A stretch of 41,370 nucleotides of DNA from Mesorhizobium sp. 65-26. GTDB taxonomy: Bacteria; Pseudomonadota; Alphaproteobacteria; Rhizobiales; Rhizobiaceae. The translations under genes were made by a program, and so were the position numbers. The DNA is taken from positions 11,993 to 53,362 of the forward strand of contig MKVL01000014.1 in assembly GCA_001899205.1 (NCBI GenBank). The letters are read 5' to 3'. The notes beneath the pieces are model-generated. The model did not search any database, was not told where the DNA came from, and saw nothing but the letters and a program-made list of their open reading frames with translations. This document shows positions 17,458 to 35,282 of this stretch, piece after piece; position 1 is the first letter of the stretch; each line of letters opens with the position of its first letter.

Positions 17458-17775
17458 AGCGCGTCGAGAACCAGGTGTGAAAGCCGCGCAACCGGGACAA
17501 TGTCGTTCGCAACCCCGCTCTGGCAGGAAGGCAGCCCCGTTATCGGATAGCGCCTGATGGCCACGCAGTTGCTACGGCCTTCCCCTGATTGCGTTGGGGT
17601 GTTCGGACGCGTCATCCCGTCGCGATGGCCGGGCGCTCTCGCTGACAGCGACGTCCATCGGTTTTGCCCAGCGCATGACCAGTATCGCGTTGCAAACCGA
17701 AAAAGTGAATTTTGTTAAACCCTGACCCGGGCCGGATGTTTCAACAGCCTGGAGTTCAAACCGAAGGAGATGATT
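17458..17775. other. Gap before the second multicopper oxidase; no gene seen
   Basis: No frame here has a start signal and a recognisable product. No FNR-type box, copper box or intrinsic terminator was found. The oxidase may be read through from the genes to the left or may have its own weak promoter near 17700, where the base composition becomes AT-richer (AAAAGTGAATTTTGTTAAA). Confidence 0.4.
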
Positions 17776-19209
17776 ATGAAGCGCCGAGATTTCTTGAAAG
17801 TTGCGCTTGCTGGCGCGGCAGGACTTGCGGTGCCAGCACTCCCACTTAGACCGGCTTTCGCCGGTCAGTCGGGCGGCCAGGCGCCGCTTGGCATCGTCCG
17901 CCGCACTATCGAGGTGAACGGCAAGGCCGCAAGCGTCTTCGGGTTGCGAAGAGCCGACGGGGCGCCAGGCCTTCGCTTGCGTGCGGGCGATGCCTTCAAC
18001 GTGCTGCTTCGAAACGAGACTGCCGAGCCAACGATCATCCACTGGCACGGGCTGACGCCGCCGTGGCCGAACGATGGCGTGGCCGACGCACCGCTGTCGC
18101 TCATCGCCGCTGGCACCGATCGCGCCTACGATTTCCCGGTGGGCAAGCCCGGCACCCATTGGATGCACGCCCACACTCTTCAGGAGCAGGCCCTTCTTGC
18201 CGCTCCTCTGATCGTCTACAATCCCGACGACAAAAGGGATGAACAGGAGATCGTTATCCTGCTTCACGACTTCTCGTTCTCGTCGCCGGAGGAATTACTG
18301 GCCGGCTTGAAGGGCAAGAATGCTGGAGGCACCATGCCCATGGGACAGGGCGGCATGGACATGTCGGGTGGCGCCGGCAACACAATGGCAGGGATGGACG
18401 ATGGCGGCATGGCGACCGATATCAACGACATCGACTACGACGCCTATCTGGCTAATGATCGCACGCTGGACGATCCTGAAGTCGTCTCGATGGAAGCCGG
18501 CGGCCGGGCGCGGCTACGCATCATCAACGGCGCGACCGCGACCGCATTCACGATCGACCTCGGCGAACTCGAAGGCGAACTGATCGCTGTCGATGGTCAG
18601 GATATCGAGCCGGTCAAAGATCGTCGATTTCCAATGACGATGGGGCAGCGCATCGACGTCCGCGTGCAGTTGCCGCGCGAGTCCCGCTCCTTCCCGATCC
18701 TCGCGCTCCGCGAAGGAAGCAGGGAGCGGACCGGTATTGTCCTGCGTCCGGCCGGAGCGACGGTGACCAAGCTCGCGACGACGGCTGATGTCGACGCTCC
18801 GGTTCTCGATTTGATGCTTGAGGCACAACTGCGTGCTATCGAACCATTGGCATCGCGCCCGGCCGACAAGACATTCGACATGGCGCTGACCGGTGATATG
18901 GTCGCCTACCGTTGGGGGTTGCAGACCAACCCGCCGCTCGTCGTGGATCCTGGCGACCGCGTGGAGGTCATGCTGCGCAACACCAGCATGATGGCGCATC
19001 CAATGCATCTGCACGGCCATCATTTCCAGGTGGTCGCGATCGACGGACGGCGGCTTCCAGGGGCGGTGAGAGATACCGTCTTGCTGCCCCCCAATCGCTC
19101 CGTAACGATTGCCGTGGATGCCGTCAATCCCGGCCAATGGGCATTCCATTGCCACCATCTCTACCACATGGCGACCGGCATGATGTCGACCTTCGCCTAC
19201 CGAGCCTAG
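17776..19209 (+). CDS. Three-domain multicopper oxidase, Tat-exported (CopA/CueO-like)
   Basis: This 477-residue periplasmic oxidase has a twin-arginine signal, [18 protein letters not shown] 17776 has AAGGAGA upstream at good spacing; the ATG at 17770 would be too close. Copper motifs are HWHG (89-92), HAH (131-133), HPMHLHGHH (408-416) and [13 protein letters not shown] (458-470), with type 1 ligands Cys459, His464 and Met469. The spacing of about 275 residues between the N- and C-terminal motif pairs allows the usual three cupredoxin domains. A Met/Gly-rich insert (about 187-211) resembles the copper-binding segments of CopA and CueO. It should act with the P-type ATPase encoded 80 bp downstream to oxidise exported Cu(I). 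Confidence 0.92.
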
Positions 19210-19289
19210 AGCATCGCAGGCGGCGGCGATCGTCCGCAGCCTGCAACCGAACCGCAGCATGTTGCAGCCGCAAGTATAGGACACTGGCC

Positions 19290-21713
19290 ATGAAGAAGGT
19301 GAATCTGGAAGTACGCGACCTCGTCGGCATGATGGATTTCGCAGCCGTCGAAATGCATCTCGCCGCCTTGCCCGGTGTCGCCAGTGTCGCGATGAACGCG
19401 GGGTCCACAACCTCAACCGTCGAATTCGACGAGGGGCGGACGAGCCCGGAGATCCTTGCCCGCGAAATCGAGGCCTGTGGCTTCCATTGTCGCGGCGAGA
19501 CCGTGCCGCGGCATCTGTGCATTCCCGACAGCACGACGATTCCGCCGGGGCATCCGCGCGCGACCTCCGGGCACGCCGGGCATGATCATGCCGGGCACGC
19601 GTCCATGATCAAGCCAGGTGCAGCGGGCCGGAGGACGGCTGCGGCCACGGCGTCGCACGACGCCATGGCCCATGAGATGGGACACGGCGCCGGCATGGAT
19701 ATGCAGGGCATGGTCAAGGACATGCGCAATCGTTTCCTTGTCAGCCTGGTTTTCACTCTGCCGATTTTCGCCATGGAGCCCATGGGGCTGGGCGAGCCCT
19801 GGTTGCGTCCACCTTTCGGGATGAGAGAGGATCTGGCGATGTTTTTCCTTGCCAGCGCCGCGATCCTCTATCCGGTCTGGCCCTTCCTGGTTGCCGCATG
19901 GCGGGCCCTGCGCAACGGCGTGCTTAACATGGCGGTGCTGGTGGTGCTGAGCGTAGGCACCGGCTACCTGTTCAGCGTCGGCGCGACCTTCTTCTTCGAG
20001 GGGCAGCAATTCTACGAGGCGGCGAGCGTGCTGCTGGTGTTCATCCTGCTCGGCCACTGGCTGGAGATGCGCGCCCGCGCCGGGGCTTCGGCCGCGATCA
20101 GAGCCCTGCTCGACCTCGCCCCGCCCAAGGCCACCGTCTTGCGAGACGGCAAGGAGGTCGAGGTCGCGACCGCGGACGTCGTGCTCGGCGACATTGTGGT
20201 CCTGCGCCCCGGCAACAAGCTTCCCGTCGATGGCGAGGTGACCGAGGGCACGTCGACCATTGATGAATCGATGCTGACCGGCGAGTCGATGCCGGTGACA
20301 AAGAAGGTCGGGGACAAGGTCATCGGGGCGACCATCAACAAAAGCGGCACGCTGCGCTATCGCTCCACCAAGGTGGGCGCCGACACCGCCCTTGCCCAGA
20401 TCGTCAAGTTGGTCCAGGAAGCCCAGAATTCGAAAGCGCCGGCGCAGCTGCTCGCCGATCGCGCGTCGCAATGGCTTGTGCTTGCCGCGATCGTCATCGG
20501 GCTTGCGACTTTCGCGATCTGGTTTTGGTGGCTCGGCCAGCCCCTACTGTTCGCGATGACCCTGACCATCACTGTCTTCGTCATCGCCTGTCCCGATGCG
20601 CTCGGCCTCGCCACGCCGATGGCCGTCATGGTTGGCACCGGCCTTGGCGCTTCAAACGGCATCCTGTTCAAGAATGCCGCCGCTCTCGAGGAGGCGACCA
20701 AGCTCAACGTGATCGTATTCGACAAGACCGGCACGCTGACCATGGGCCAGCCCAAGGTCGTCGAAATCGTCCCGGCTGTCGGCATTTCGCTCGAGGAGGT
20801 TCTGCAAGTCGCAGCCGCCGTGGATCAGGGGTCGGATCACCCGTTAGCCGTCGCCATCGTCGAGCGGGCCAAAGACCTGAAGCTCCCCAAAGTGTCGGAC
20901 TTCCTGAACATCGAAGGCGAAGGCGCCAGAGCCGCGATCGGCGGGGCGCCGGTCTTCCTCGGCAACCGGCGTCTTATGGACGAGCAGAAGATCGATCTTC
21001 TGACGCTCGGCGAGAGGGCCGAGACGCTCAAGGGCGAAGGCCGTACCGTCATCCATGTCGCGCGGTCCGGCAAGCTGCTCGGGCTGATCGCGATCGCCGA
21101 TACGCCCCGCCCGACGGCCATCGCAACGATTGCCAAATTGCACGACCAGGGCGTTCGCGTAGCCATGCTCACGGGCGACAATGCAGGCACCGCCAAGCGC
21201 ATCGCCGGCGCACTCGGTATCGACATCGTTCTGGCCGACGTTTTGCCGGGACAGAAGGCCGAAAAGATCAAGGAATTGCAAGGGCAGGGCTTGAAGGTCG
21301 GCATGGTTGGCGACGGCGTCAACGACGCGCCCGCCCTGACACAGGCCGATGTCGGGTTCGCAATCGGAGCAGGCACCGATGTCGCCATCGAAAGCGCCGA
21401 CATCGTGCTGATGAAGAGCGATCCCTACGATGTGGTCGGTGCGATGACGCTCTCGCGCGCCACGCTGCGCAAGATGCACCAGAACCTATGGTGGGCGGTC
21501 GGATACAATCTCATCGCCTTCCCGGTCGCGGCGGGCGTGTTCTACCCGTTCCTGCTGAGCCCCGAGATTGCGGCGCTGGCAATGTCGGGCAGTTCGGCTC
21601 TCGTGGCCGTCAACGCTCTGCTGCTCAAGCGAACCAGGCTCGCGGGCATCCGGTCCGCCGGGTCGATGACCGAAGGTGCCGCTCACGAGCACCCAACTGG
21701 CCTCCCGGCATGA
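19290..21713 (+). CDS. CopB-like heavy-metal P1B-type ATPase with CPD motif
   Basis: This 807-residue inner-membrane copper-type export ATPase starts at ATG 19290, with AGGA 8 bases upstream. Residues 1-67 look like a heavy-metal-associated (HMA) domain fold that has lost the CxxC metal site. Residues 86-140 are His/Met-rich ([24 protein letters not shown]), as in CopB. The core is complete: TGES (330-333), DKTGT with Asp478, SDHP near 515-518, and GDGVNDAP. The membrane metal motif is CPD (434-436, [12 protein letters not shown]) rather than CPC, CPH or SPC. The last membrane segments read YNLIAFP and [11 protein letters not shown], consistent with a copper or silver enzyme. Neighbours support copper. 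Confidence 0.9.
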
Positions 21714-22039
21714 GCGTATCCACTAAAGGCCCCCTGCCCGCATCGTGGTGGTTCCTGGGCGCACTTCGCGCCTCGGCCTTTGTCGTTGCGCGCGGCTATG
21801 GGATTTGGGGGCGGTTGTCGGATTTCATCGGGCGCCGGCCCATCCTTATCGTCGATCTGATCGGCTTTGCCGTCACTTTGGCGGCTTCGTCCCTCGTGCC
21901 GAGTTTGCCCGTTCCTTATGTCGGGCGGATCTTGAATGGTGGCCTCGCTGCCGGATTTGACTCGGCAGCGCGGGTCCCTCCTCTACGCAAGTCGTCCCGG
22001 TGCCTCTCGCGGCCGCCCGGGTTCTGGCCACTGCTGTAG
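21710..22039 (+). pseudogene. MFS transporter fragment (TetA-like)
   Basis: The ATG at 21710 overlaps the ATPase stop (ATGA). The 109-residue frame contains the major facilitator signature GRLSDFIGRRPILI with two hydrophobic segments after it (FAVTLAASSLVPSLP and YVGRILNGGLAAGF), then non-family sequence and a stop. The first membrane helix is poorly preserved and at least eight of twelve helices are missing, so it cannot be a working carrier. It is a truncated relic, probably once the next gene of the copper cluster. Confidence 0.7.
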
Positions 22040-22071
22040 GTAACGGGACTGCTCTTCCTAGAGATCGATCA

Positions 22072-22100
22072 ACCGGCCGCTTCACGCCACCGCGGCCGGT
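22072..22100. terminator. Hairpin after the MFS remnant, possible terminator
   Basis: Perfect 9-bp arms ACCGGCCGC (22072-22080) and GCGGCCGGT (22092-22100) with an 11-nt loop. There is no T run after it on the plus strand, so it would be a weak or factor-assisted terminator between the copper cluster and the nuclease operon. Confidence 0.35.
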
Positions 22101-22189
22101 GCTTGAGACAGCTGAGCTTCGCGCCGTTTACGGGAGAGGTATTGCCGAATGAGTATTCTCGGACTTTTACCAATTGCTTGGAGAGTTAC

Positions 22190-23575
22190 GTGAAACAAGA
22201 TTCCTCACCATCACTTCAATTTCTCGGGGCCGCAGGAACAGTTACAGGATCGCGGTACCTGCTTGAAACGGATGGACACCGCATTCTCATCGATTGCGGT
22301 CTCTTTCAGGGCTACAAACAGCTGCGCGATCGCAATCGCGCGGCATTCCCGGTGTCGCCCGAAACCATCGACACGATGCTGCTGACTCATGCGCATCTCG
22401 ACCATTCGGGCTATATTCCCGCGTTGGTGCGCGATGGGTTTCGCGGCAAGATCATATGCACTCCCGCCACCGCCGAGTTGTGTTCTCTGCTACTACCCGA
22501 CAGCGGCCACCTTCAGGAAGAAGAGGCAAGGTACGCGAAGGAGCGAGGCTATTCCAAGCATGCCAATCCTGCGCCGCTGTACACTCTTGAGGACGCGAGG
22601 GCTTCCCTGGAACATATCGAGACTCGGGATTTCGATTGTGAATTCGAAATCCGGCCCGGCGTTCGAGCCCGTTTCATCCACGCTGGGCATCTTCTTGGCG
22701 CCGCGCAGATAAGCTTGAAATTGGCCGACATGACGTTGCATTTCAGTGGTGATCTCGGGCGCCCGCAAGACCCACTGATGCGGCCACCCCAACCACTGCT
22801 GGAGGCTGACATTCTCGTCTGCGAATCTACCTACGGCAACCGCAGACATCCGCGAGCCAACGCTGAGGCGGAACTTGCTCCAGTCATCCGGCGTGTCGCA
22901 GCTCGGGGCGGTGTGATCGTCATCCCGGCGTTCGCCGTCGGCCGCGCCCAAGGCATCATGCTGCACATTGCTCGCCTTCGCCAGCGCGGCGAGATCCCAA
23001 CCGTGCCCGTGTTCCTCAATAGCCCCATGGCTGTCGATGCTACGGAAATCTACCACCGTTTCCATGACGAGCACCACGTCAGCGTCGATGAATGCCGGGC
23101 CATGTACTCAATCGCGACGCTGGTGCGCTCTGTCGAAGAATCCAAAGCCCTGAACCTCAGGCGGGGGCCCATGATCATCATATCGGCAAGCGGCATGCTC
23201 ACCGGAGGACGGGTGTTGCACCACCTTCAGGCATTCGGATCGGATGCGCGCAATGCGATCCTGCTTTCGGGTTTCCAGGCCGGGGGTACGCGAGGTGCGG
23301 CTCTAGCAGCCGGCGCCGACCACCTTCGGATGTTTGGACGTGATGTGCCGATCCGTGCGGAAGTCGTTCAGCTTGAGAGCTTTTCCGGTCACGCGGACGC
23401 AGACGAGATTCTCGAATGGATGCGACCCGCTCGCCGCGCACCCAAGATTGCATACATTACGCACGGCGAACCGGACGCCGCTGATACACTGCGTGGCCGC
23501 ATCAATCGCGAACTGCGATGGCGGGCTCGCACGCCCGAGCACCTCGAGCGGATTGATCTGGAGCGGCCAGCATGA
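22190..23575 (+). CDS. Beta-CASP metallo-beta-lactamase-fold RNase-like protein
   Basis: This cytoplasmic protein has 461 residues from GTG 22190, which has GGAGAG 4 bases upstream; an ATG 29 codons earlier has no such signal. The metallo-beta-lactamase motifs are FLGAAGTVTGSRYL, HAHLDHSG (motif 2), HAGHLLG (motif 3) and FSGDLGR (motif 4). The beta-CASP part follows with VIVIPAFAVGRAQ, SASGMLTGGRVLHHL, SFSGHADADE and YITHGEP. This is the CPSF73/YSH1-type family of RNA endo- and exonucleases. It is the first of three overlapping genes, so its RNA breakdown products may feed the next two enzymes. Zinc ligands look complete. Confidence 0.9.
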   Translation: MKQDSSPSLQFLGAAGTVTGSRYLLETDGHRILIDCGLFQGYKQLRDRNRAAFPVSPETIDTMLLTHAHLDHSGYIPALVRDGFRGKIICTPATAELCSLLLPDSGHLQEEEARYAKERGYSKHANPAPLYTLEDARASLEHIETRDFDCEFEIRPGVRARFIHAGHLLGAAQISLKLADMTLHFSGDLGRPQDPLMRPPQPLLEADILVCESTYGNRRHPRANAEAELAPVIRRVAARGGVIVIPAFAVGRAQGIMLHIARLRQRGEIPTVPVFLNSPMAVDATEIYHRFHDEHHVSVDECRAMYSIATLVRSVEESKALNLRRGPMIIISASGMLTGGRVLHHLQAFGSDARNAILLSGFQAGGTRGAALAAGADHLRMFGRDVPIRAEVVQLESFSGHADADEILEWMRPARRAPKIAYITHGEPDAADTLRGRINRELRWRARTPEHLERIDLERPA

Positions 23576-25083
23576 GTGGCGACCATAGCCAGTTGCGCCT
23601 CGTCCGAGCAGGCATCGACACATACCAGCAACCGGTGGTCTACATGCATCGCGACTGTCATGTCTGCCGGTCAGAGGGCTTTACCGCCCTGACCCGAGTT
23701 CTGGCACGTAGCGGCGACCGCGAGGTGGTAGCCACGCTCAACGTGGTTGTCGACGATCATCTCGAATTGGATGTCGCGGCGCTGTCCGAGGCGGCCTGGA
23801 CGATCCTCCAGCCGGGCCCCGACGCAGTCGCCGTATTCAGCCATCCGGAGCCGCCCGTGTCGGCACCGGCGTTGCGGGCGAAGGTCTTCGGCCGGCGGCT
23901 CCGCGAGGCCGATTTCCTTGCCCTCATGCGCGACACAGTCGACAACCGGCTGTCGGATATCGAATTGACGGCATTCATCACGGCATGCGCCGGCGAGCGG
24001 CTCGACAATGAAGAGACGACTGCCCTCACGAAGGCAATGTTGGCGGTCGGCGAGCGCATCGATTGGGGCAGCGGCGCGGTATTGGACAAGCATTGCGTCG
24101 GCGGCCTTCCCGGAAACCGCACCACGCCGATTATCGTAGCGATCGTTGCCGCCGCTGGTCACCGAATCCCAAAGACGTCCTCACGGGCCATCACATCCCC
24201 CGCCGGCACAGCCGATGCCATGGAGGTGATGGCGCCGGTGGCGCTGGACCTCGAAGCCATGCGAAGCGTGGTCGAGCGTGAAGGAGGCTGCATCGTCTGG
24301 GGCGGAAATGTCCGGCTCAGCCCAGCCGATGACATTCTGATCCGCATCGAGCGCCCGCTCGACTTCGACAGCGACGGCCAACTGGTCGCAAGCGTGCTTT
24401 CGAAGAAGGCCGCGGCCGGCTCCACCCACGTGGTGATAGACATTCCCATCGGACCGACCGCCAAGGTGCGTTCTTCCTCTGCCGCCGCGTTGCTTGAGGC
24501 AAGGCTCCTGGCGACAGCTCAGGCTCTCGGACTTAACCTGTCGGTTGTGCGCACCGATGGCCACCAACCGGTTGGATACGGCATCGGGCCGGCTCTTGAG
24601 GCGCGAGACGTGCTGAGCGTCCTGCGCAACGACGCGGCAGCGCCCGGCGATCTGCGCAGCCGTGCACTTGATCTTGCCGGCGCCTTGCTCGATGCCGCAC
24701 CTGGGGCCGTGCCCGGCAAGGGACGGGTGTTGGCCTGCACACTGCTCGACGACGGCGCCGCCTTGCGCAAGTTTGTTGCGATCTGCGAGGCACAGGGCGG
24801 CTTTACCGAGCCAGGAATGGCTCCCCACATCCGTCCGGTTTTCGCCAACCGAACCGGCCAGATCCACCAGATTGACAACCGTCGGCTTGCAAAGGTCGCC
24901 AAGCTTGCCGGCGCTCCCGGCAGCGCCGTTGCTGGACTTGATTCCCGCCTTCGCATCGGCGACAGTATCAAGATCGGCGAGCCGCTGTTTCACGTCCACG
25001 CCCGGTCCCCTGGAGAACTGGAATACGCATTTGAATATGCTTCGGCTCATCCGGACATATTCGAGATCGGGGGCGGACAATGA
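23572..25083 (+). CDS. Thymidine/AMP phosphorylase family protein (long, archaeal-type form)
   Basis: This 503-residue protein overlaps the preceding stop by ATGA. An N-terminal extension of about 80 residues is typical of AMP phosphorylases and absent from ordinary DeoA. The phosphorylase core follows: DKHCVGGLPGNRTTP (phosphate and substrate loop), KTSSRAITSPAGTADAMEVM and GGNVRLSPADD, then the GAALRKF region and a C-terminal beta domain. AMP phosphorylases turn a nucleoside 5'-monophosphate plus phosphate into ribose-1,5-bisphosphate and base. The true substrate here could be AMP, CMP, UMP or a nucleoside. The neighbouring nuclease and PRPP synthetase homologue suggest nucleotide salvage. 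Confidence 0.88.
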   Translation: MSGDHSQLRLVRAGIDTYQQPVVYMHRDCHVCRSEGFTALTRVLARSGDREVVATLNVVVDDHLELDVAALSEAAWTILQPGPDAVAVFSHPEPPVSAPALRAKVFGRRLREADFLALMRDTVDNRLSDIELTAFITACAGERLDNEETTALTKAMLAVGERIDWGSGAVLDKHCVGGLPGNRTTPIIVAIVAAAGHRIPKTSSRAITSPAGTADAMEVMAPVALDLEAMRSVVEREGGCIVWGGNVRLSPADDILIRIERPLDFDSDGQLVASVLSKKAAAGSTHVVIDIPIGPTAKVRSSSAAALLEARLLATAQALGLNLSVVRTDGHQPVGYGIGPALEARDVLSVLRNDAAAPGDLRSRALDLAGALLDAAPGAVPGKGRVLACTLLDDGAALRKFVAICEAQGGFTEPGMAPHIRPVFANRTGQIHQIDNRRLAKVAKLAGAPGSAVAGLDSRLRIGDSIKIGEPLFHVHARSPGELEYAFEYASAHPDIFEIGGGQ

Positions 25084-25991
25084 CCCGCGTGCTGCTTCCT
25101 TTCCCGTTGCAGCGAACCCTGGCAGACGCACTAGCCCCTTTGCTGGGCGCGCGAACCGGCCGGCTGGACTGGCGCCATTTTCCGGACGGCGAATCCCTAG
25201 TCACAATCGAACAGGATCTGCACGGCGCCGACGTCGCGCTCGTAGCCAGTCTCCACAGCCCTGATGAACTCGCCATGCCGCTGCTGTTCGCGGCGGCGAC
25301 AGCGCGCGAATTCGGAGCTCGCTCCGTTGGGCTTGTTGCGCCATATCTGGCCTACATGCGTCAGGATAAGCGGTTCAATCCCGGTGAAGCCGTAAGCGCG
25401 CCAGTGTTCGCACGTTTCTTGACGGAAAATTTCGACTGGCTGGTGACAGCGGATCCCCACCTGCACAGGAATCCCAGGGTTTCCGAGCTGTTTCGCATCC
25501 CGGCCCGGGCAGTTGCCACGGCTCCCCTGGTCGCTGAATGGATTCGAGGCCATGTCCCGAACGGCGTCCTGATAGGTCCCGACAGTGAAAGTGGCCAATG
25601 GGTATCCGACGTCGCTCACCGCGCCGGTGTTACCTATCATATCTTGACGAAAACCCGACGCGGTGACCGCGACGTCGAGGTGAGCCTTCCTTCGATTGAC
25701 GCGGCTCGCAGCCGAACCCCAATCATCGTTGATGACATCGTTTCGTCGGGAGGGACCATGATCGAAACCCTGGGTCACCTAAGGCGACTTGGTCTGCCTC
25801 CTGCAGTCTGCATCGTCATTCATCCCGTGTTCGCTCAAGACGCCTACGCGCAGCTGTTGGCGGCCGGTGCCGAAAGGGTCGTGAGCACAGACTCGATTCC
25901 GCATCCGTCGAATGCGATTTCCATCGCCAGCTTGCTGGCCGAGGCCAGCGCCGAATTGTTCGGAAACGCTCCGTCAAGGCAAAGGTCGTGA
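25080..25991 (+). CDS. Ribose-phosphate pyrophosphokinase (PRPP synthetase) paralogue
   Basis: This 303-residue protein overlaps the phosphorylase stop by ATGA. It has two phosphoribosyltransferase-fold halves. The ATP-binding motif is YLAYMRQDKRFNPGE, close to the usual ARQDRK. The catalytic flap is TKTRRGDRDVEV, with Lys and Arg kept. The PRPP loop is IIVDDIVSSGGTMIETL. Insertions typical of the housekeeping enzyme's allosteric site are not obvious, and it is slightly shorter than the usual 310-320 residues. Housekeeping Prs is normally a separate gene, so this is likely a specialised copy working with the phosphorylase. It would make PRPP from ribose 5-phosphate, or possibly act on a related sugar phosphate. 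Confidence 0.87.
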   Translation: MTRVLLPFPLQRTLADALAPLLGARTGRLDWRHFPDGESLVTIEQDLHGADVALVASLHSPDELAMPLLFAAATAREFGARSVGLVAPYLAYMRQDKRFNPGEAVSAPVFARFLTENFDWLVTADPHLHRNPRVSELFRIPARAVATAPLVAEWIRGHVPNGVLIGPDSESGQWVSDVAHRAGVTYHILTKTRRGDRDVEVSLPSIDAARSRTPIIVDDIVSSGGTMIETLGHLRRLGLPPAVCIVIHPVFAQDAYAQLLAAGAERVVSTDSIPHPSNAISIASLLAEASAELFGNAPSRQRS

Positions 25992-26043
25992 CAACGTCGC
26001 TCGCCTACCGCCTCATCACCGGCACTCTATAGGACGCCTCGGG

Positions 26044-28082
26044 ATGCTGACGTCCCTGGTCTCATCGGTGGTCGAATTCCTGACGGCGCGCCCGCATGTG
26101 GCCTATCTGGCGGTGTTTGTGCTGGCGCTTTCGGAGTCGATCCCGATCGTCGGCGTCGTCATCCCCGGCACCGCTGTGATCCTCGCGCTCAGCACCCTGG
26201 TGCCGAGCGGCGTATTGTTGCTCTGGCCGTTGCTGATCGCAGCCACTTCAGGCGCCATCGCTGGTGATGGCTTTCATTCTGGCTGGGGCACCGGTACCAT
26301 CGCGAGATTCTTGGCCTCTGGCCACTGAACCGGAACCCCGAACTGATTGAGCGCAGCGAGGCCTTTTTCACGCGTCATGGCGACAAGAGTGTTTTTCTCG
26401 CCCGCTTCACACCGGGCGTCCGCGCCTTCATTCCGCTCCTCGCCGGCATGCTGGGAATGCCGGTCAGACGGTTCTATGCCGTCAATGTTGCGTCGGCGCT
26501 CGCCTGGGCTCCGTCGCATATCCTGCCCGGTGTGCTCGTTGGTGCCGCCTTCGGCATTTTCGGTGCGGCCGCAAAGCCGCTGGCGATCCTGCTGATCGTT
26601 CTGCTCGTAACGGGTTGGGTGGTTCTGCATGTCGTGCGGTGGACTTTGGGCCGCGGCATAGCCTTGCTCGTCATCGGTGGGGAATGGCTACGGGCCTGGG
26701 CCGGCACCCACGACACCTGGCTCGGCCGCAATCTCACTAGTTTGTTTGATCCTTTACAGAACGAGGCGCGGGCTCTCGCACTGCCGATGGTTCTGCTCAT
26801 CGGAGCAGCATGGCTGTTCTTCGGCATCCTTGAAGATGTAGTCAGCGGCGATCCGTTGGTGCTCGCTGACGGCGCGATCTATCGCGCCCTCCAGGATCTT
26901 CGCACCGCACCTGGCGATGCGGTGATGATCGCCATCACCGAACTCGGCGACACCGCCGTCGTGGTGGCGGTCACAATCATCATCTTTCTGTGGCTTGCGT
27001 GGAAGCGCGCCTGGCGCACGGCCGCCTATTGGATCGCTGCAATCGCTGGAGCTTCGGCTCTCAACACAGTCATCAAGGTGGCTTTGCATCGAGCCAGGCC
27101 AGGTGAATCGCTCTATCCCGGCTGGAGTGCGTTTTCCTTTCCAAGCGGCCATAGCACAGTCAATATGGTGCTCTACGGATTCCTCGCCTTCCTTATGGCG
27201 CGTGAACTTCGCCCCGTGTTGCGCGTCTTGGTCGCACTCGTCGCCGCGGTCCTGATATTTATGATCGCATTCTCACGCCTCTACCTCGGTGTACACTGGC
27301 TGTCCGACGTGCTCGGAGGTTTGGCATTCGGGTCCGCCTGGCTCGCGCTGCTTGGACTGTCCTATCTGCGCCGCCAAACCGAGCGCATTGAACCAAGTCG
27401 GCTGCTTGCCGTCGGATGTGCGTCGCTCATCCTCGCCGGAGGCTTTCATATCTACCGCAGCAACGCGACGGATATCCAGCGATACGCCATCAAAAGCACG
27501 ACGCAATCCATGGCGGCCGCTGATTGGTGGGCGTCGGATTGGCAGCAGCTGCCAGCGCGCCGCATCGACCTTACCGGCGAGACGCAAGAGCCGCTGACGT
27601 TCCAGTGGGCCGGTAGCTTGCAAAGCCTGCAAGACGTCTTGCTACGGAAGGGCTGGCACACATCGGCAGCTTGGGCGTCGTTGAGCACTCTGACCTGGTT
27701 CACCGGATCGGCCAGTGCGGCCAACCTTCCGGTTGTTCCCTTTCTCGCCGGCGGTCGCTTTCCCAGCCTGACCCTTGTTCGACAGTCCAGTGACGTTGTA
27801 TTCTTGGATTCTCGTCTCGTGCTCCGGCTGTGGGCCGCCGACGTCGAGGTTACCAACGGCCAGACCGCGCCGCTCTGGATTGGGTCCGTCGCCGAGGAAC
27901 GTGTCTATCATCCTCTCGGGCTCGTCACGCTGGTCTCGACGCAGTCCGACGTCGACGCGCCGCGAAAAGCGCTGGCAGAGGCTCTCGACGCAGGACGCCT
28001 CGTTTCGCGGGCCAAAGGAGTGATGGCCTCGGATTGGGACGGGCAGGTGCTATTGGCTCGCCAAGACGACATGCGGAAATGA
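26044..28082 (+). pseudogene. DedA-PAP2-LssY fusion membrane protein, single frameshift
   Basis: The start at 26044 has AGGA upstream. The N-terminal DedA domain begins MLTSLVSSVVEFLTARPH... and reads SGAIAGDGF, after which the frame is lost at about 26275. One missing base in the expected TTT-TCA-TTC restores FWLGHRYHREILGLWPLNRN and FARFTPGVRAFIPLLAGMLG in the next frame. That frame runs on through a PAP2 phosphatase domain (KVALHRARP, PSGHSTVNM, SRLYLGVHWLSD) and the LssY C-terminal domain to 28082. The intact protein would have about 680 residues and act on lipid phosphates at the inner membrane. As written it is broken; a sequencing error is possible. An internal start such as 26448 could still make the PAP2-LssY part. 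Confidence 0.8.
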
Positions 28083-28345: not shown

Positions 28346-29473
28346 TTACGACTGCCGTGCGAGCATTGTCCTGAAGCGCGACAGGGCAACAGCAACAAAC
28401 GCGGCGCCCAGCGCCGCCATTGCCGCCAGGTCCTTCCAGACGAGGTCAACTCCGGCGCCACGATAGAGGACCGATTGCGCGAATCTGACAAAGTGCGTCG
28501 ACGGCGACGCGTACATGATGTCTTGCAGCAACACCGGCATGCTCTCGAATGGAGTGAACGAGCCTGATAGCAGGAACATCACGATGAAGACCGGGATCGC
28601 TAGCAGCGCAAATTGCGGCATCGAGTTGGCGATGGTGGCTAGCAAGATGCCGAGCGATGTCACTGCGAAGAGATAGACGGCGGTCCCGGCAAGGAAGAAT
28701 TCCACCGATCCCACGATTGGCACTTGCAGCGCGAACTGCACCACGAGGTGGAGCGAAAGCCCTGCCGCCAGCAGGACAATCAATCCATTCGCCCAGATCT
28801 TTGCCGCAAGAATTTCGTTCGGCAGCACAGGCATCACCAATAAATGCTCAATGGTGCCGCGCTCACGTTCGCGCATCACCGCCGCGCCGGCAAGGATGAC
28901 CGCGAGGATCGTGACATTGTTGATGATACCCATACTGGCGGAAAAACGGATCGCCTCAAGGTTCTGATTGAACAAGGCGCGGATGACCGGTTCGATCGGA
29001 ACGGCCTGGGTGGCACCGTGCTGATGCAGAAAGTCTGCCGTCTCGCGGGCAATGATTTGCTGGATGTAGGCTGTTCCAACGGCGGCTTGTGCCACTGCCG
29101 TCGCATCGACATTGATTTGTATTGACGGACCGCGGTTCGCCAAAAGATCGGCTTCGAAGCGCGGCGGAATTTCGAGGACAAAGGTGTATAGTCCCTTGTC
29201 CAGGAGTTCATCGAGTTCTGAGCGATCGATTTCGCGGGGTACGCGAAAGTAAGGCGGCTGCAGGGCGTCCTTGATGCTCGCGGACAAGATCGAGTGGTCG
29301 GCATCGACGATGGCCACACCGGCATTGCTTACGTCGGTCTTCATGGCGGTCGCCTCGGAATAAACGGCGACCGTGAAAACATAGACAATCAGAACGGCCA
29401 TGACCACGTCGCGCGCCAGGCTGGCGAGTTCCTTGACACCGAGACGAAATACGTTCCGAACCCAATATTTCAT
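28346..29473 (-). CDS. yhhJ: ABC-2 type transporter permease (YhhJ-like)
   Basis: This 375-residue inner-membrane permease starts at ATG 29473 (MKYWVRNVFRLGVKEL), 2 bp after the stop of the fused ATPase-permease gene. The long open frame before it is not coding. It has one N-terminal helix, a periplasmic domain of about 150 residues (DADHSILSASIKDAL..., IQINVDATAVAQA) and five or six C-terminal helices with AVMRERERGTIEHLLVMPV, the conserved ABC-2 cytoplasmic loop. It resembles E. coli YhhJ, which is encoded with RbbA and a HlyD-type protein exactly as here. Substrate is unknown. Confidence 0.9.
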   Translation of the reverse strand: MKYWVRNVFRLGVKELASLARDVVMAVLIVYVFTVAVYSEATAMKTDVSNAGVAIVDADHSILSASIKDALQPPYFRVPREIDRSELDELLDKGLYTFVLEIPPRFEADLLANRGPSIQINVDATAVAQAAVGTAYIQQIIARETADFLHQHGATQAVPIEPVIRALFNQNLEAIRFSASMGIINNVTILAVILAGAAVMRERERGTIEHLLVMPVLPNEILAAKIWANGLIVLLAAGLSLHLVVQFALQVPIVGSVEFFLAGTAVYLFAVTSLGILLATIANSMPQFALLAIPVFIVMFLLSGSFTPFESMPVLLQDIMYASPSTHFVRFAQSVLYRGAGVDLVWKDLAAMAALGAAFVAVALSRFRTMLARQS

Positions 29474-29475
29474 GG

Positions 29476-32256
29476 CTAGATGCTTTGCTTGCGGACCGAC
29501 AGGCGAGCCAGCAGGAGAAACACGATGCCAAAACCGATCAATACGGCGATCTCGGTAATAAACGCATTCGCCCCGAGCCCTTTGGCAAAGACGCCGAGAC
29601 TGACGGTTTGGAACCAAAGTGCGGGAAATGAAAGCCCCATTACACGGGCCGGACCTTCAAGTGTCGAGGCCGGGAAAAGGAACCCGGAATAGTGCGCCGC
29701 AGTCATTGCGGTCAGAATCGCTGTTGCAAAAATCGCCGCGACCTGTGTCGAGACGAATGCCGATACCAAAAGACCGAAGGCGGTTGCCGCAAACACGTAG
29801 CTCAAGGCTGCAATTGACAAGGCAAGCACGGACCCCTTTGGGACTACGCCAAGCACGCCGGCAGCCATCACCACAAGGCTGACAAAACTGACAAGGCCGG
29901 TCGCAACATAGGGTAGCTGCTTGCCGATGAGATATTCGCCGACCGTCGCGGGAGAGGCGTAGACGTTCGTAATCGAGCCCATCTCCTTTTCCCGGACGAC
30001 GGCGAGTGCCGTCAGCATCGCTGGAAACACGACCAGCAGAAGCATGATCGACCCCGGCGTGATTGCGAAAACGCTGCGGAAGTCCTGGTTGTAGCGAAAC
30101 CGCGGCTCGACATTGACCGGCGACATCTGCGCATCTTGGCCATGTTCCTGAAGCTGGCGCTCCGCCGCGTAGGTCAGAACCGCACCCTGAATATAAGCGC
30201 GCGCCGTCTCCGCCGGAAACGTATTGCCGCCGTCGAGCCAGAAGCTCACCTGCGGCTGGCGATCATGCAGAAGGTCGCGACCAAAGCCGGGCGGAATATC
30301 GACAGCGAACCGCAACTCCCCCGAGCGCAAGCGATTGTCGATCTCGAATTCGTTTGTCAGTGGTGACTGCTCAACAAAATAGCGGGAATGCGAAAACTGC
30401 TCCAGGAACAAGCGACTCTCGACAGACTGATCTCGATCGAGCACAGCGTAGCGAAGATTTTCGATATCGAACGAGATGCCATAGCCAAACGTTGCCAGCA
30501 GCAAGAGAGGTCCAAGCAGCGCGAAAGCAAGCCGGATGCGATCTCTCAGGAGTTCCACGGCCTCTCGCCGGGCAAAGGCCCAGATTCGACGCACAGATGC
30601 CGCTGGCGATCTTGGCGAGAGGTCTGCGAGGGACGTCGTCTCTGACCCGGACAGAGCAGACGCATTGGCCAGCTCGACGGCGGCAGATGATGCAGGTAGA
30701 TTCTTCGGCGCCGCCGACTGGGCCGATGCCTCCTCGAGATAGGCAACAAAGGCGTCCTCCAGATTGCCGGCGTTACGCGCCAGGCGAAGTTCGTCGGGGT
30801 TGCCGATCGCAAGAACGCGGCCTGCATGCATCAAGGAAACTCGGTCACAGCGTTCGGCCTCGTTCATGAAATGTGTCGAGATGAAGATGGTCACTCCATC
30901 GCGGCGCGACATCTCGACGAGGAGATCCCAGAACCGGTCACGTGCCGCCGGGTCCACACCCGAAGTAGGTTCGTCGAGGATCAGCACTTCGGGCTGATGC
31001 AGACAGGCCGCGGCAAGCTGGAGCCGCTGGCGCATCCCGAGCGGCAGTTCAGTCGGCAACGCGTTCGCAACGACTTCGAGGTCGAACCGGGTCAATGCTG
31101 AGGCGACGCGCGCCTCAAGGTCGCCTGCAGGAATGCGGAAGAGGCGTCCATGAAGCTCCAGGTTCGCCCTGACGGAGATCTCCTCGTAGAGCGAGAAGGA
31201 TTGCGACATGTAGCCGATGCGCATTCTTGTCATGATGTCGCGGGCATCGACAGGCTTTCCCAACAGCTCGGCTCGCCCTTCGCTCGCCGGCAGAAGTCCC
31301 GTGAGCATCTTCATCGTGGTCGTCTTGCCGCAACCATTCGATCCCAGAAATCCAAAAATCTCTCCGCGCTGGATTCGGAAGCTGACGTGATCCACCGCGG
31401 TGAAATCGCCGAAGCGCATGGTCAGGTTATCGGCAGCGATCGCGGGAGGACCATCGCTATGTTGCAGCTCTGGAATCGCCAGCTCCTTGCGATCGCCGCG
31501 ACGCTCGGGACGCTGGAGAGCGATGTAGGCTTCCTCCAGCGTGCTTGCCTTGGTTTGGGCAAGGATCTGCGCTGTGTCACCTGCGGCGATAACCTTGCCC
31601 TCATCCATGGCGACGATGTGATCGAAGTGCTCGGCTTCCTCCATGTAGGCGGTCGCCACCAGCACCGTCAGGCCGGGACGCTCGATGCGGATTCGTCCGA
31701 TCAGGTCCCAAAATTGGCGCCGCGACAGTGGATCGACACCGGTTGTGGGTTCATCGAGGATCAACAGGTCGGGGTCGTGGATCAGGGCACAGCAAAGGCC
31801 GAGCTTCTGCTTCATCCCGCCCGACAATTTGCCGGCAGGGCGGTCCGGGAAGGGATCGAGCCCCGTCGCGATGAGAAGGCGCGCGATGCGTTTGTGGCGC
31901 TCGCCTTCTGCCTGTCCATACAATCGGCCGAAGAAATCGATGTTCTCGACGACGGAGAGGGTCGGATAGAGGTTGCGGCCGAGGCCCTGTGGCATATAGG
32001 CGATGCGAGGCGCCACCGAATCGCGGTGAGAGCGCAATGCCATGTTCCCGCCAAGAGCCGCCACGGTTCCAGACTGGATTTGCTTGACGCCGGCCATCAG
32101 GCCGAGAAGGCTGGACTTGCCGACGCCATCTGGGCCGATGAAGGCCGTCGTCGTTCCAGAGTCGATCGAAAGGCTGACGCCGTCGAGCGCAATCGTTTTG
32201 CCATAGCGGTGGCGAACCGAACCGACTCGAATGCCGGGTTCCTGGTCAGCGGACAT
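29476..32256 (-). CDS. rbbA: RbbA-like fusion: two ABC ATPase domains and an ABC-2 permease
   Basis: This 926-residue protein is close to the length of E. coli RbbA (911). The first ATPase domain (about residues 8-245) has Walker A GPDGVGKSS, signature KLSGGMKQK and Walker B LLILDEPTTGVD. The second (about 275-510) has GSNGCGKTT, a weaker signature ELPLGMRQR and LILDEPTSGVD. An Ala/Ser-rich linker leads to the permease part (about 560-926) with a periplasmic loop and LTALAVVREKEMGSITNVYAS. The start overlaps the end of the HlyD-type gene by 11 bp. RbbA was first described as a ribosome-bound ATPase; in this setting it is more likely the motor of an export pump. Confidence 0.93.
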   Translation of the reverse strand: MSADQEPGIRVGSVRHRYGKTIALDGVSLSIDSGTTTAFIGPDGVGKSSLLGLMAGVKQIQSGTVAALGGNMALRSHRDSVAPRIAYMPQGLGRNLYPTLSVVENIDFFGRLYGQAEGERHKRIARLLIATGLDPFPDRPAGKLSGGMKQKLGLCCALIHDPDLLILDEPTTGVDPLSRRQFWDLIGRIRIERPGLTVLVATAYMEEAEHFDHIVAMDEGKVIAAGDTAQILAQTKASTLEEAYIALQRPERRGDRKELAIPELQHSDGPPAIAADNLTMRFGDFTAVDHVSFRIQRGEIFGFLGSNGCGKTTTMKMLTGLLPASEGRAELLGKPVDARDIMTRMRIGYMSQSFSLYEEISVRANLELHGRLFRIPAGDLEARVASALTRFDLEVVANALPTELPLGMRQRLQLAAACLHQPEVLILDEPTSGVDPAARDRFWDLLVEMSRRDGVTIFISTHFMNEAERCDRVSLMHAGRVLAIGNPDELRLARNAGNLEDAFVAYLEEASAQSAAPKNLPASSAAVELANASALSGSETTSLADLSPRSPAASVRRIWAFARREAVELLRDRIRLAFALLGPLLLLATFGYGISFDIENLRYAVLDRDQSVESRLFLEQFSHSRYFVEQSPLTNEFEIDNRLRSGELRFAVDIPPGFGRDLLHDRQPQVSFWLDGGNTFPAETARAYIQGAVLTYAAERQLQEHGQDAQMSPVNVEPRFRYNQDFRSVFAITPGSIMLLLVVFPAMLTALAVVREKEMGSITNVYASPATVGEYLIGKQLPYVATGLVSFVSLVVMAAGVLGVVPKGSVLALSIAALSYVFAATAFGLLVSAFVSTQVAAIFATAILTAMTAAHYSGFLFPASTLEGPARVMGLSFPALWFQTVSLGVFAKGLGANAFITEIAVLIGFGIVFLLLARLSVRKQSI

Positions 32257-33244
32257 CCGGGAGCCTCGGCGTCAGATCGGCCGGCCAGGCTGCTCCGGCC
32301 TGTACTTTGACGTAAGCGTAGCCGGTCATGCCTGCTTTCACATAGCCGCTGTGTTTTTGGAGTATCTGCGGATCAATGTGCAGCTTGATCCGGTACATCA
32401 GCTTCTCGCGCTCATCGACGGTCTCGACATATTTTGGGGTGAACTGCGCATCCGCTGCGACGAAGGAAACCGTTGCCGGGACGACGTATCCGGGCGCCCC
32501 GTCGAGCACGATCCGCGCCTCCGATCCGAGCTCGACACGCCCGACTTGGCTCGTGGGAAGGAAGATCGTCATATGGGCGTCCGAAAGGTCGAGAAGCGTG
32601 AGCACCCGCCCGCCGGCCGCGACCACCTCCCCGGTTTGAGCAAGGCGATATTCGACTCGGCCCGACACCGGAGCTTTCAGCGTCATGTCGGCAATCATCG
32701 CCTGGATTTGGGTCACTTGAGCCTCGGCAGCCTCCACCGCTGTCTTGGCGTCTTCCACAGCCACTTTGGCGCTATCCAGAGCAGCTTTTGAGATGTCTCT
32801 CTGTGCCGTGCGACGATCCAGTTCCGCTTGGGTGGCCGTATTGGTGCGTGTGAGCTCGGCGGCGCGCTTCAGCTCTACGTCGGCCAGCTTCAACTCCGCC
32901 TCGCGCACGGCAACATTGGCCTCGGCGTTTGCCACACCCTGATGGCTGCGGTGCACGCCAGCTTTCGCCGCGGCAAGCTGCGCAAGTATCTCTGTCGTGT
33001 CGATGCGGGCGAGAACAGCATCTTTCTCGACATCAGAGCCCTCGTTAACGCCCACCTCGGAGAGGCGGCCGGCATATTTGGTTGCGATGTCGACGCGCTC
33101 GACTTCGATCCGACCATTGGCTCGCGCCAATCCTATGGGTACGCGGGTCGCCTCTTCCCTCAACCAGTATGCGTAACCGCTGCCGGCGGCGGCTATGAGG
33201 ACAGTAACAGCGACGATCGGAGCAAGACGCATTCTTTTATCCAT
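32246..33244 (-). CDS. HlyD-family membrane fusion protein (YhiI-like)
   Basis: This 332-residue periplasmic adaptor has an N-terminal membrane anchor at about residues 8-27 (APIVAVTVLIAAAGSGYAYW). A barrel-sandwich (lipoyl-like) half follows, with GRIEVERVDIATKYAGRLSE. Next is a long coiled-coil hairpin (about 85-190, Ala/Glu/Lys-rich), then the second lipoyl half with APVSGRVEYRLAQTGEVV and a beta-barrel domain. It is the first gene of a leftward three-gene operon with the RbbA- and YhhJ-like genes, and would link the pump to an outer-membrane channel. A palindromic site lies 59 bp upstream. No outer-membrane factor is encoded alongside. Confidence 0.92.
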   Translation of the reverse strand: MDKRMRLAPIVAVTVLIAAAGSGYAYWLREEATRVPIGLARANGRIEVERVDIATKYAGRLSEVGVNEGSDVEKDAVLARIDTTEILAQLAAAKAGVHRSHQGVANAEANVAVREAELKLADVELKRAAELTRTNTATQAELDRRTAQRDISKAALDSAKVAVEDAKTAVEAAEAQVTQIQAMIADMTLKAPVSGRVEYRLAQTGEVVAAGGRVLTLLDLSDAHMTIFLPTSQVGRVELGSEARIVLDGAPGYVVPATVSFVAADAQFTPKYVETVDEREKLMYRIKLHIDPQILQKHSGYVKAGMTGYAYVKVQAGAAWPADLTPRLPDVR

Positions 33245-33302
33245 ACTTGGCGCACAAACCGCGCTCAGGTCAGCACCGCCTCGGCCCGGTTATAGCAAAG
33301 CG

Positions 33303-33896: not shown

Positions 33897-35258
33897 TCAA
33901 GCGATTGGCGTCGATTCTTGATCGAAATCCCTCAACCAGCCGCCTTCAAATCCTGCCCGTTGCAAGCCGTTGCGGACATACGGGCATGAGCGCATCAACC
34001 GCCACAAGAGGCCGCTGGCGTCATTCTCGATCATCAGGACGACGGGCCCTTCGTTGAGGCCGAAATGCCAAGGTGAAATCCACCATCCAAAAGCATCGTC
34101 GGACGTCCCCGGATGCGTCGGATTGAAGGCCGCCTTGAACCCATAAGCCTTGGCGGCCTTGAGCTTGGCCTGGTGGATGCAGAAGCTGATCGCTGGCCGG
34201 ACGATTTCCGGCGCAAAAGGCAAGGAAGCGGCGATGGCCCACGGAGCGAGCGTGCCATCGTCGGGACCGTAGGGAACTCCGCGCGCGACATAGCCTTCGA
34301 ACCGGCGTTCGATGCCCTTCACCCTGAGTGTTGAGGGACCGGGCCCCTCACTTGCGGTAATGCCCCAGCAGTGTTCGCCGTAGCCTTCAAAACCGCGCGG
34401 ATTGTCGATGGCATAGCGTTGTTGGACGAAGGTGGCACGCCGGCTGTTCTCGAAGTAATCACTGCCCTTGCTCCGCATGAAGGCATCCTGCAAACCTCGA
34501 AGATCGATCCATACGTGCGAGAGCTGATGAATGAACAATGGCCCGGCATAGAGGTAGTCGTAGCCGTAGCACTGCTCCCATCGAAATGTTGCCGTCCAGG
34601 CCGAGTAGCTGCTTTCTGGAAGGGGGTAGGTCGGCGAACCGAGCCCCAGAACATAGAGCAGGAGCGCCTCGTCATAGCCTTCCCAGCGATATTTGATGAA
34701 TCCGCGCTCCGGCGTCCAACCATGAGTGACGGTTTCTCCTCCATTCCGTGCCCAGCGCCAATCGGCACGGCAAAAGAGCGCGTTCGCCAAGGTGCGGATT
34801 TCGGTTTCGGCCTCGGTGTCGGCATCGAAATACTGCCCCGCCGCCAGCGCGCCAGCCAGCAGGAGCGTGCTGTCGATGGTCGACAACTCGCATTGCCAGG
34901 CCCTCCTGCCAGTTTGCATGTCCAGGAAATGGTAATAGAAGCCGCGATATCCCGTTGCGTCCGGCTCCGGGCCCTGTGAACTGTTCCAGAAGAAGCGTAA
35001 CGTCGTCAAGGTACGTTCAACAGCTGCGGCCCGGCTCATGAATCCGCGCTCGACTCCCACCGGATAGCAGGACAGCGCAAGACCGGTGGCTGCGATGCTA
35101 GCGGGCCAATCTGCCTCGGTCTTGTCCAGGATGAGACCGTTGGCAGGGTTCGCCTCGTGGATGAAGTAGTCGAATGTCTCGCGCTGCAATGTCGCCAGGT
35201 CGTCTTGCATGGCAGAGGTGGTTGCCGGATCGTTGGGTTCCGAAACATGCGATCGCAT
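33897..35258 (-). CDS. Glucoamylase-like glycosidase (GH144/COG5368 type)
   Basis: This 453-residue protein has an alpha/alpha-barrel glycoamylase domain, the same domain that occurs at the end of rhizobial cyclic beta-1,2-glucan synthases. Visible family landmarks are ETFDYFIHEANPANGLILDK, SIAATGLALSCYPVGVERG, LLLAGALAAGQYFD, YDEALLLYVLGLGSPTYPL and GECW-like GYGEHCWGITASEGP. Known relatives in GH144 are endo-beta-1,2-glucanases. No signal peptide is seen (MRSHVSEPNDPATTSAMQDD), so it may act in the cytoplasm, unlike secreted relatives. GGGGAG lies about 10 bases upstream. It follows the CBS-BON gene by 24 bp in a leftward operon. Confidence 0.82.
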   Translation of the reverse strand: MRSHVSEPNDPATTSAMQDDLATLQRETFDYFIHEANPANGLILDKTEADWPASIAATGLALSCYPVGVERGFMSRAAAVERTLTTLRFFWNSSQGPEPDATGYRGFYYHFLDMQTGRRAWQCELSTIDSTLLLAGALAAGQYFDADTEAETEIRTLANALFCRADWRWARNGGETVTHGWTPERGFIKYRWEGYDEALLLYVLGLGSPTYPLPESSYSAWTATFRWEQCYGYDYLYAGPLFIHQLSHVWIDLRGLQDAFMRSKGSDYFENSRRATFVQQRYAIDNPRGFEGYGEHCWGITASEGPGPSTLRVKGIERRFEGYVARGVPYGPDDGTLAPWAIAASLPFAPEIVRPAISFCIHQAKLKAAKAYGFKAAFNPTHPGTSDDAFGWWISPWHFGLNEGPVVLMIENDASGLLWRLMRSCPYVRNGLQRAGFEGGWLRDFDQESTPIA

Positions 35259-35282
35259 CTTTGTATGCTCCCCGACCGCTGT

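Follow-up and report, generated by a model that had tools for sequence, protein, structure and literature searches.

A three-gene bacterial cluster that may degrade nucleotides by phosphorolysis through ribose-1,5-bisphosphate

The overlapping trio and its protein families

Mesorhizobium sp. 65-26 (GenBank assembly GCA_001899205.1, contig MKVL01000014.1) carries, end to end on one strand, genes for a beta-CASP metallo-beta-lactamase (MBL) ribonuclease (RNase), a homologue of the archaeal nucleoside monophosphate (NMP) phosphorylases, and a paralogue of the phosphoribosyl pyrophosphate (PRPP) synthetase Prs. Here, we describe this trio within the window—the whole stretch of 41,370 nucleotides that was analysed—and in related genomes and plasmids. 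The two ATGA overlaps by which a sequence-only reading of the same DNA had joined the genes are present at the reported joints, with all three genes on the + strand (Table 1). The phosphorylase and the Prs paralogue are extra copies, as the genome also has DeoA and another Prs (29% identical to the paralogue), which we take for the housekeeping copy.

The first product gives Pfam scores of 116 bits for Beta-Casp, 60 for RMMBL, and 49 for Lactamase_B, and its best sequence match in the Protein Data Bank (PDB) is RNase TTHA0252. The domains and metal ligands of a beta-CASP RNase, HxHxDH included, are intact: among 74 same-strand homologues from the loci collected below (window copy included), H67, H69, D71, H72, H167, D188, D207, H401, and H425 are invariant wherever a row has a letter (72–74 of 74). 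The type VII CRISPR Cas14 model NF045584 gives this protein 361.7 bits, far under the cut-off of 800 and higher than any other NCBIfam model listed for it; the RNase group of the window may stand near the origin of Cas14.

The second product passes PRK04350 (630 bits, cut-off 434) and TIGR02645 (534 bits, cut-off 435). Both models are named for thymidine phosphorylase, and if the enzyme were the thymidine or pyrimidine nucleoside phosphorylase that NCBI calls it, the module would serve plain nucleoside salvage. That reading, with which four family-invariant residues that follow DeoA and not the Thermococcus enzyme agree, appears very improbable: the genome already encodes a true DeoA (677 bits on TIGR02643, cut-off 570.7), a model on which the trio enzyme scores just 129.6 bits; 22 family-invariant positions are common to the trio enzyme and the Thermococcus enzyme and absent from the genome's DeoA (two of them gaps in DeoA); and the natural fusions to PhnN described below are hard to explain unless the product is ribose-1,5-bisphosphate (R15P). 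On the model scores and the discriminating positions, the earlier assignment of the phosphorylase to the archaeal NMP type, not to DeoA, stands. Its best PDB sequence match is 4ga4/4ga5, listed as putative thymidine phosphorylase; we take entries 4ga4–4ga6 to be the Thermococcus AMP (adenosine monophosphate) phosphorylase. The AlphaFold2 model has a mean predicted local distance difference test (pLDDT) score of 91.4.

The third product passes PRK07199 (387 bits, cut-off 322) and TIGR01251 (197 bits, cut-off 113), and its AlphaFold2 model has a mean pLDDT of 91.2. We aligned 106 phosphorylase-linked Prs paralogues, that of the window included, with Prs sequences of solved structure and with the second Prs of the genome. 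The ATP, catalytic, ribose 5-phosphate (R5P), and pyrophosphate loops are named here after their roles in PRPP synthetases. Residues of the ATP site (adenine, flag), the catalytic Lys/Arg loop, and the R5P loop are retained in the linked paralogues, with F34, D36, E38, R94, Q95, D96, H127, K191, R193, D218, D219, and T226 present in at least 103 of the 106 rows. The normal pyrophosphate loop of a PRPP synthetase, P-D-x-G-G/A, is missing: it reads P-D-x-E-S, with a Trp three residues on, and compared with 1u9y, 4twb, and 8yq0 the paralogue has an L-H-R insertion after the catalytic His. These departures are close to uniform among rows with a letter (H129, R130, and E170 in 104/104; S171 in 101/104; W174 in 104/105). 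A loop so uniformly rewritten would fit a substrate with a single C1 phosphate, such as R15P.

Table 1. Features of the trio and its surroundings (window positions, except for the last row)
Feature	Position	Strand	Remarks
Beta-CASP metallo-beta-lactamase RNase, 461 aa	22190..23575	+	GTG start
Archaeal-type NMP (AMP) phosphorylase homologue, 503 aa	23572..25083	+	with N-terminal domain
PRPP-synthetase (Prs) paralogue, 303 aa	25080..25991	+	rewritten pyrophosphate loop (GPDxES..W), LHR insertion
ATGA overlap, RNase/phosphorylase	23572..23575	+	4 bases; from the sequence
ATGA overlap, phosphorylase/Prs	25080..25083	+	4 bases; from the sequence
Multicopper oxidase	17770..19209	+	same + strand run as the trio
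Heavy-metal P-type ATPase open reading frame (ORF)	18912..21713	+	same run, 5' of the trio; true start inside the ORF
Perfect FNR/FixK-type box TTGATTTGCATCAA	16021..16034	+	34 bp before ATG 16069
Second perfect FNR-type box	40336-40349		flanked by a Bax1-I family gene and an ABC1-kinase gene
Perfect FNR-type box	contig C14 at 71972 (L178 8583-8596)		where the phosphoketolase-acetate kinase operon and the arginine deiminase operon start divergently

Linkage across genomes and a probable exchange of the partner enzyme

Among 398 genomes drawn from the phylum (Pseudomonadota), matches to the phosphorylase are split by a wide gap: 48 matches in 45 genomes have E <1e-82, and DeoA-type proteins follow from 1.5e-37. 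The Prs paralogue (E up to 1e-28) occurs in 41 of the 398, 40 of them among the phosphorylase genomes (the odd one is G383), i.e. in 40/45 phosphorylase genomes vs 1/353 others (Fisher p ~3e-48, kinship uncorrected). For gene order, we used 47 draw loci (all 48 phosphorylase matches minus the window's own) and 80 named loci (the best 80 of at least 585 confirmed phosphorylase relatives); counts over 127 loci combine the two sets and exclude L084–L088 and L169–L174. Prs lies ≤200 bp downstream of the phosphorylase in 38/47 draw and 67/80 named loci, and RNase, phosphorylase, and Prs stand in a row in 43 of the named loci. Of the 105 Prs-adjacent loci, 78 have an NTGA stop/start overlap at the phosphorylase stop, and for 71 of the 78 the start so formed shares its frame with the Prs match. 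The named loci include records from Bacteroidota, Verrucomicrobiota, and Gemmatimonadota, and the phosphorylase (E up to 1e-40) is also present in 116 plasmid records, of which 46 are typed as conjugative; haloarchaea account for 3 of the 60 plasmid rows listed. The trio is accessory in the window's genus, as just 2/9 draw genomes of that genus have the phosphorylase. Adjacency of the families, which the sequence-only reading proposed as a check, is thus kept across many families and plasmids.

Five phosphorylase genomes are without the Prs paralogue. In four (G308, G382, G392, and G249), a PhnN domain is fused N-terminally to the phosphorylase (PhnN 164–186 bits, cut-off 156; PRK04350 544–590 bits, cut-off 434), and the annotation of the Pacificitalea plasmid pDY25-A shows a fifth such fusion. 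In a phosphorylase tree of 70 rows (L072 and L081 left out), the five fusions form one clade (100/99) within a 28-row clade (98/98) whose remaining 23 rows are all Prs-adjacent; in this tree, support for the bacterial/archaeal split is poor (84/53) and DeoA, the outgroup, sits on a very long branch. As the fusion clade is nested among Prs-adjacent rows, a single replacement of the Prs partner by fused PhnN is the simplest account, and the two enzymes look interchangeable around R15P. PhnN turns R15P into PRPP (portions covered of PMC9700705, citing Hove-Jensen 2003). Consequently, the phosphorylase likely yields R15P, and in the fusion clade an exit to PRPP is plausible.

The remaining genome of the five, G255, has a fragment: its phosphorylase match (L081) is confined to residues 51–346, the RNase gene is on the opposite strand, and the copy looks decayed.

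All four draw fusion loci, and none of the 43 other loci of that set, have a same-strand nadC homologue upstream. NadC is a user of PRPP. The homologues of the two fusion loci scanned exceed the cut-off of 198 (313 and 324 bits), and nadC is also annotated upstream on pDY25-A. All five fusion loci (L079, L080, L082, L083, and L088) thus present a nadC homologue followed by the PhnN-phosphorylase fusion, possibly an NMP-to-PRPP-to-NAD unit of their own.

Other exits for R15P were sought in the same genomes. PhnN passes its cut-off in 15/45 phosphorylase genomes, 10/40 Prs-linked genomes (those with both phosphorylase and Prs paralogue), and 75/353 others (p 0.55, no association); the Prs-linked genome G246 has a match of 135 bits, under the cut-off, and the window genome encodes PhnN away from the trio, a gene that the sequence-only reading did not take into account. 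We rejected PhnN as a general exit on this lack of enrichment. No R15P isomerase exceeds its cut-off in any of the 45 phosphorylase genomes (weaker homologues in 23), and the sole homologue in the window genome is MtnA. RuBisCO is present in 21/45 and missing in 24/45; we rejected it too as the exit, since the window's genome gives no match to it and an isomerase over the cut-off is lacking throughout. The earlier statement that the archaeal isomerase and RuBisCO are not present holds for the window's genome. With PhnN in only 10/40 and the isomerase in 0/45, R15P has no other nameable exit in 30/40 Prs-linked genomes (some incomplete, down to 70%), and there the Prs paralogue is the only nameable candidate for its consumption.

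The paralogue might instead be an ordinary synthetase (R5P + ATP → PRPP + AMP), with the phosphorylase removing or recycling AMP and the pair tuning adenylate and PRPP under stress. We regard this as quite unlikely. The ATP-binding and catalytic residues checked are retained, TIGR01251 is passed, and the known product AMP would be the substrate of the neighbouring enzyme; however, the genome has its own housekeeping Prs, the change in the pyrophosphate loop is uniform, the route would be a near-futile cycle, and R15P would be left without a nameable exit in the 30 genomes just mentioned.

Neighbouring genes and low-oxygen regulation

Phosphoketolase homologues recur beside the module. They lie in the fetched flanks of 26/127 loci, 24 on the same strand and 18 ≤300 bp from prs, in orders such as RNase-phosphorylase-prs-xfp, prs-xfp-RNase-phosphorylase, and RNase-phosphorylase-ackA-xfp-prs. 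XFP_N exceeds its cut-off in 15/45 phosphorylase genomes vs 53/353 others (p 0.005, kinship uncorrected), and phosphoketolase is a frequent, not a necessary, partner of the trio. A divergent phosphoketolase subfamily recurs near the Prs paralogue (L038, L047, L093–L101, L143, L144, and others). Its members keep H85, H118, H340, and H569, among others, in ≥90% of 22 rows, and their substrate may differ from xylulose-5-phosphate.

The window's 83-kb contig itself carries a canonical phosphoketolase-acetate kinase operon and an arcDABC arginine deiminase operon, in which the antiporter, ArcA, ArcB, and ArcC each pass at least one NCBIfam function cut-off (ArcA misses TIGR01078, with 475 of 489). 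After the phosphoketolase-acetate kinase operon (L178 3508-4704) lies a PRK04439-type methionine adenosyltransferase, presumably of the archaeal type.

Six perfect TTGATNNNNATCAA FNR-type boxes occur on the contig, two of them inside the window; none of 300 first-order resampled windows had two. Related loci hold 18 perfect boxes in 2.1 Mb vs 1–5 in ten resamples. The ATG at 16069, downstream of the first box (Table 1), opens a co-directional run on the + strand that ends with the trio and is putatively a single transcript. Directly before the trio there is no perfect box, and a two-mismatch site at 22059 is within chance (15 found, 11.5 expected); a sigma-70 promoter scan of 21700-26500 found none.

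Low-oxygen induction of the homologous genes is on record. According to the portions covered of a study of Bradyrhizobium diazoefficiens at 0.5% O2, protein log2 changes were 2.9 for bll3115 (MBL hydrolase), 4.4 for bll3116 (Prs), and 2.1 for bll3117 (phosphorylase); transcripts rose 15.4-, 7.7-, and 5.1-fold, respectively; and the phosphoketolase bll2518 rose likewise (protein log2 4.3, transcript 8.2-fold) (PMC6515984). In the portions covered of a second study, bll3117-bll3116-bll3115 is predicted to form an operon, its FixK2 box lies at -74, and loss of fixK2 lowers bll3117 6.6-fold and bll3115 30.6-fold; the phosphoketolase-acetate kinase pair bll2518-bll2517 has a box at -89 and shows ~10-fold falls (PMC9104804). 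A pathway for the three genes is not discussed in those portions of either paper. The phosphorylase-prs-MBL order is common to B. diazoefficiens, an annotated plasmid of Bradyrhizobium septentrionale, and loci L075–L078. We dropped the Burkholderia lxa low-oxygen locus as a known name for the module, a term search of the main text of PMC6127331 having found neither "phosphorylase" nor "pyrophosphokinase".

The trio also shares its strand run with a multicopper oxidase and a heavy-metal P-type ATPase. The latter shares 67% identity over 790 residues with the L116 ATPase, itself a match to E1-E2_ATPase and HMA, and P-type ATPase homologues lie near 55/127 loci (9/47 draw, 46/80 named). The genes could be linked only as fellow travellers on an island for metal and low-oxygen stress, with no shared pathway; the many plasmid records and the patchy presence in the genus agree with this as well. 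We consider it the least probable of the explanations weighed here: phosphorylase and Prs are adjacent in 38/47 draw loci, whereas a P-type ATPase is found in only 9 of them, stop and start codons overlap in most Prs-adjacent loci, and the partner was, on the simplest account, exchanged for PhnN.

The nearest named relatives among the matches listed are Mesorhizobium metagenome-assembled genomes and plasmid pSinB of Sinorhizobium M14. The DNA of pSinB matches the window at 81–82% over 17751-21804, 28347-33271, and 33933-35722. Its phosphorylase (L084 11638-13224) matches that of the window from residue 97 onward, with no RNase gene annotated before it, and its N-terminal portion seems to have been lost or exchanged. 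In the window, positions 21710-21952, which separate the P-type ATPase from the RNase, hold the remnant of an MFS transporter, matching the first ~123 residues (47% identity) of an MFS gene that is intact at the same place in pSinB (L084 10329-11600).

A putative R15P route and its relation to known systems

We propose that the trio is a bacterial nucleotide-phosphorolysis module that hands R15P to the Prs paralogue and probably comes into use under a shortage of oxygen or energy, a proposal for which our judgement is evenly divided. In the first step, the beta-CASP RNase would, by its family, free 5'-NMPs from RNA. In the second, homology and the PhnN fusions suggest that the phosphorylase would convert NMP and inorganic phosphate to base and R15P, keeping the energy of the glycosidic bond. 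In the third, the dedicated Prs paralogue would consume R15P, one clade having handed this role to fused PhnN. We hold R15P to be the probable intermediate, and give even weight to the Prs paralogue acting, or not acting, on R15P itself. The sequence-only reading had the AMP-type phosphorylase release the base and R15P and a Prs homologue act next; its core holds, with R15P likely, and the product of the paralogue may be PRPP or, with a gain of ATP, R5P.

In phosphoketolase-linked modules, the third step might run as R15P + ADP or AMP → R5P + ATP or ADP, and R5P might then pass towards phosphoketolase and acetate kinase. We lean slightly to this direction over PRPP formation (R15P + ATP → PRPP + ADP) in such modules, as the pyrophosphate loop is rewritten uniformly, although an R5P-forming action on R15P is itself put forward only tentatively, and a PRPP-forming action is unlikely. 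In its full form—a Prs-family enzyme moving the C1 phosphate of R15P to ADP or AMP, which would let a bacterium under hypoxia draw energy from its RNA solely by phosphorolysis—the idea is possible but doubtful. If true, the chain from RNA through NMP, R15P, and R5P to phosphoketolase and acetate kinase would give the survival island a third route of substrate-level phosphorylation, the other two being arginine deiminase and phosphoketolase.

Alternatively, the ribose of NMPs may be recycled into PRPP for salvage and NAD synthesis, an account that overlaps partly with our proposal and that we judge rather unlikely. Either the Prs paralogue would perform the reaction of PhnN or PhnN would do so, with the paralogue topping up PRPP. 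PRPP-forming PhnN takes the place of Prs in the fusions, nadC lies upstream of four draw fusions and of the plasmid one, Prs homologues form PRPP, and the window genome has PhnN. Yet the loop expected to hold the pyrophosphate of PRPP is the one rewritten, PhnN is not enriched in Prs-linked genomes, and the links to phosphoketolase and acetate kinase suggest catabolism. A different exit, to PRPP, had been suggested from the sequence; the PhnN fusions beside nadC support it for their clade, while the Prs paralogue may give R5P and ATP or ADP.

Several observations weigh against our proposal. The phosphorylase misses the AMP_phos equivalog cut-off of TIGR03327 (426.6 bits, cut-off 535); 11 positions invariant in the bacterial rows deviate in the Thermococcus enzyme, and at four of these (W165, K173, M217, and A282) the bacterial residue is that of DeoA, and the use of 5'-phosphorylated substrates goes beyond what sequence can prove. 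The beta-CASP gene is a looser partner than phosphorylase and Prs are to each other, lying ≤200 bp upstream of the phosphorylase in 11/47 draw and 50/80 named loci and after prs in 7 more of the draw loci. An XFP_N match over the cut-off is missing in 27/40 Prs-linked genomes, and the linked phosphoketolase is divergent (22–28% identity with the canonical one on the window's contig) in 23/25 matched loci; with only L054 and L112 canonical, we rejected the canonical phosphoketolase as the linked enzyme. The fusion loci have nadC and no phosphoketolase nearby, which favours PRPP output there. The reaction R15P + ADP → R5P + ATP is uphill under standard conditions, and gene linkage can mirror shared regulation and not shared chemistry. 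Finally, the B. diazoefficiens trio proteins sit in the lenient list (log2 ≥1), and the portions covered of that study enter neither bacteroid induction nor a direct FixK2 mark for them (PMC6515984).

Our literature search found no description of a bacterial module of this kind, weak evidence of absence with most subscription papers outside its coverage. What is known of R15P metabolism comes chiefly from archaea; its bacterial side has been PhnN, in phosphonate use. A bacterial module centred on R15P, widespread and in many cases on plasmids, would add a route by which nucleotides and RNA are broken down during survival at low oxygen. Two names in common use would also need correction: thymidine phosphorylase and ribose-phosphate diphosphokinase, the latter being the public annotation of the closely linked Prs paralogue.

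Among known systems, the archaeal NMP (AMP) phosphorylase TK0352 (described in PMC9700705, as far as covered), which we take to be the enzyme of PDB 4ga4–4ga6, is close to that of the trio: the two are 43% identical over 394 aligned residues and share the SSRAITS..AGTAD and GG(L/V)PGN(R/K)T motifs and an N-terminal domain covered by the family models. The bacterial enzyme differs in its separate, weakly supported branch, its score under the TIGR03327 cut-off, and its partner, the Prs paralogue or fused PhnN. With the archaeal pentose bisphosphate pathway and its non-carboxylating haloarchaeal form (PMC9700705, portions covered), the putative route would share the first step and the R15P node, and would part from them in the absence of an R15P isomerase and, in the window genome and 24/45, of RuBisCO; nor is prs annotated alongside the haloarchaeal plasmid phosphorylase in the two regions examined.

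Escherichia coli PhnN, the ribose 1,5-bisphosphokinase, likewise handles R15P and is fused to a trio-type phosphorylase in five loci, but it is a guanylate-kinase relative outside the Prs family and has no match over the cut-off in 30/40 Prs-linked genomes. The archaeal-type PRPP synthetases (1u9y, 4twb) share with the paralogue their sequence family, ATP site, catalytic K/R loop, and R5P loop; the paralogue departs from them in having D-x-E-S..W for D-x-G-G/A, plus LHR after the catalytic His. In the phosphoketolase-acetate kinase and arginine deiminase pathways, phosphorolysis yields an activated phosphate that makes ATP. Both pathways are characterised, whereas the R15P route is putative. 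Their genes lie with the trio on one contig that carries FNR-type boxes, and in B. diazoefficiens the phosphoketolase-acetate kinase genes depend on FixK2 as the trio does (PMC9104804, portions covered).

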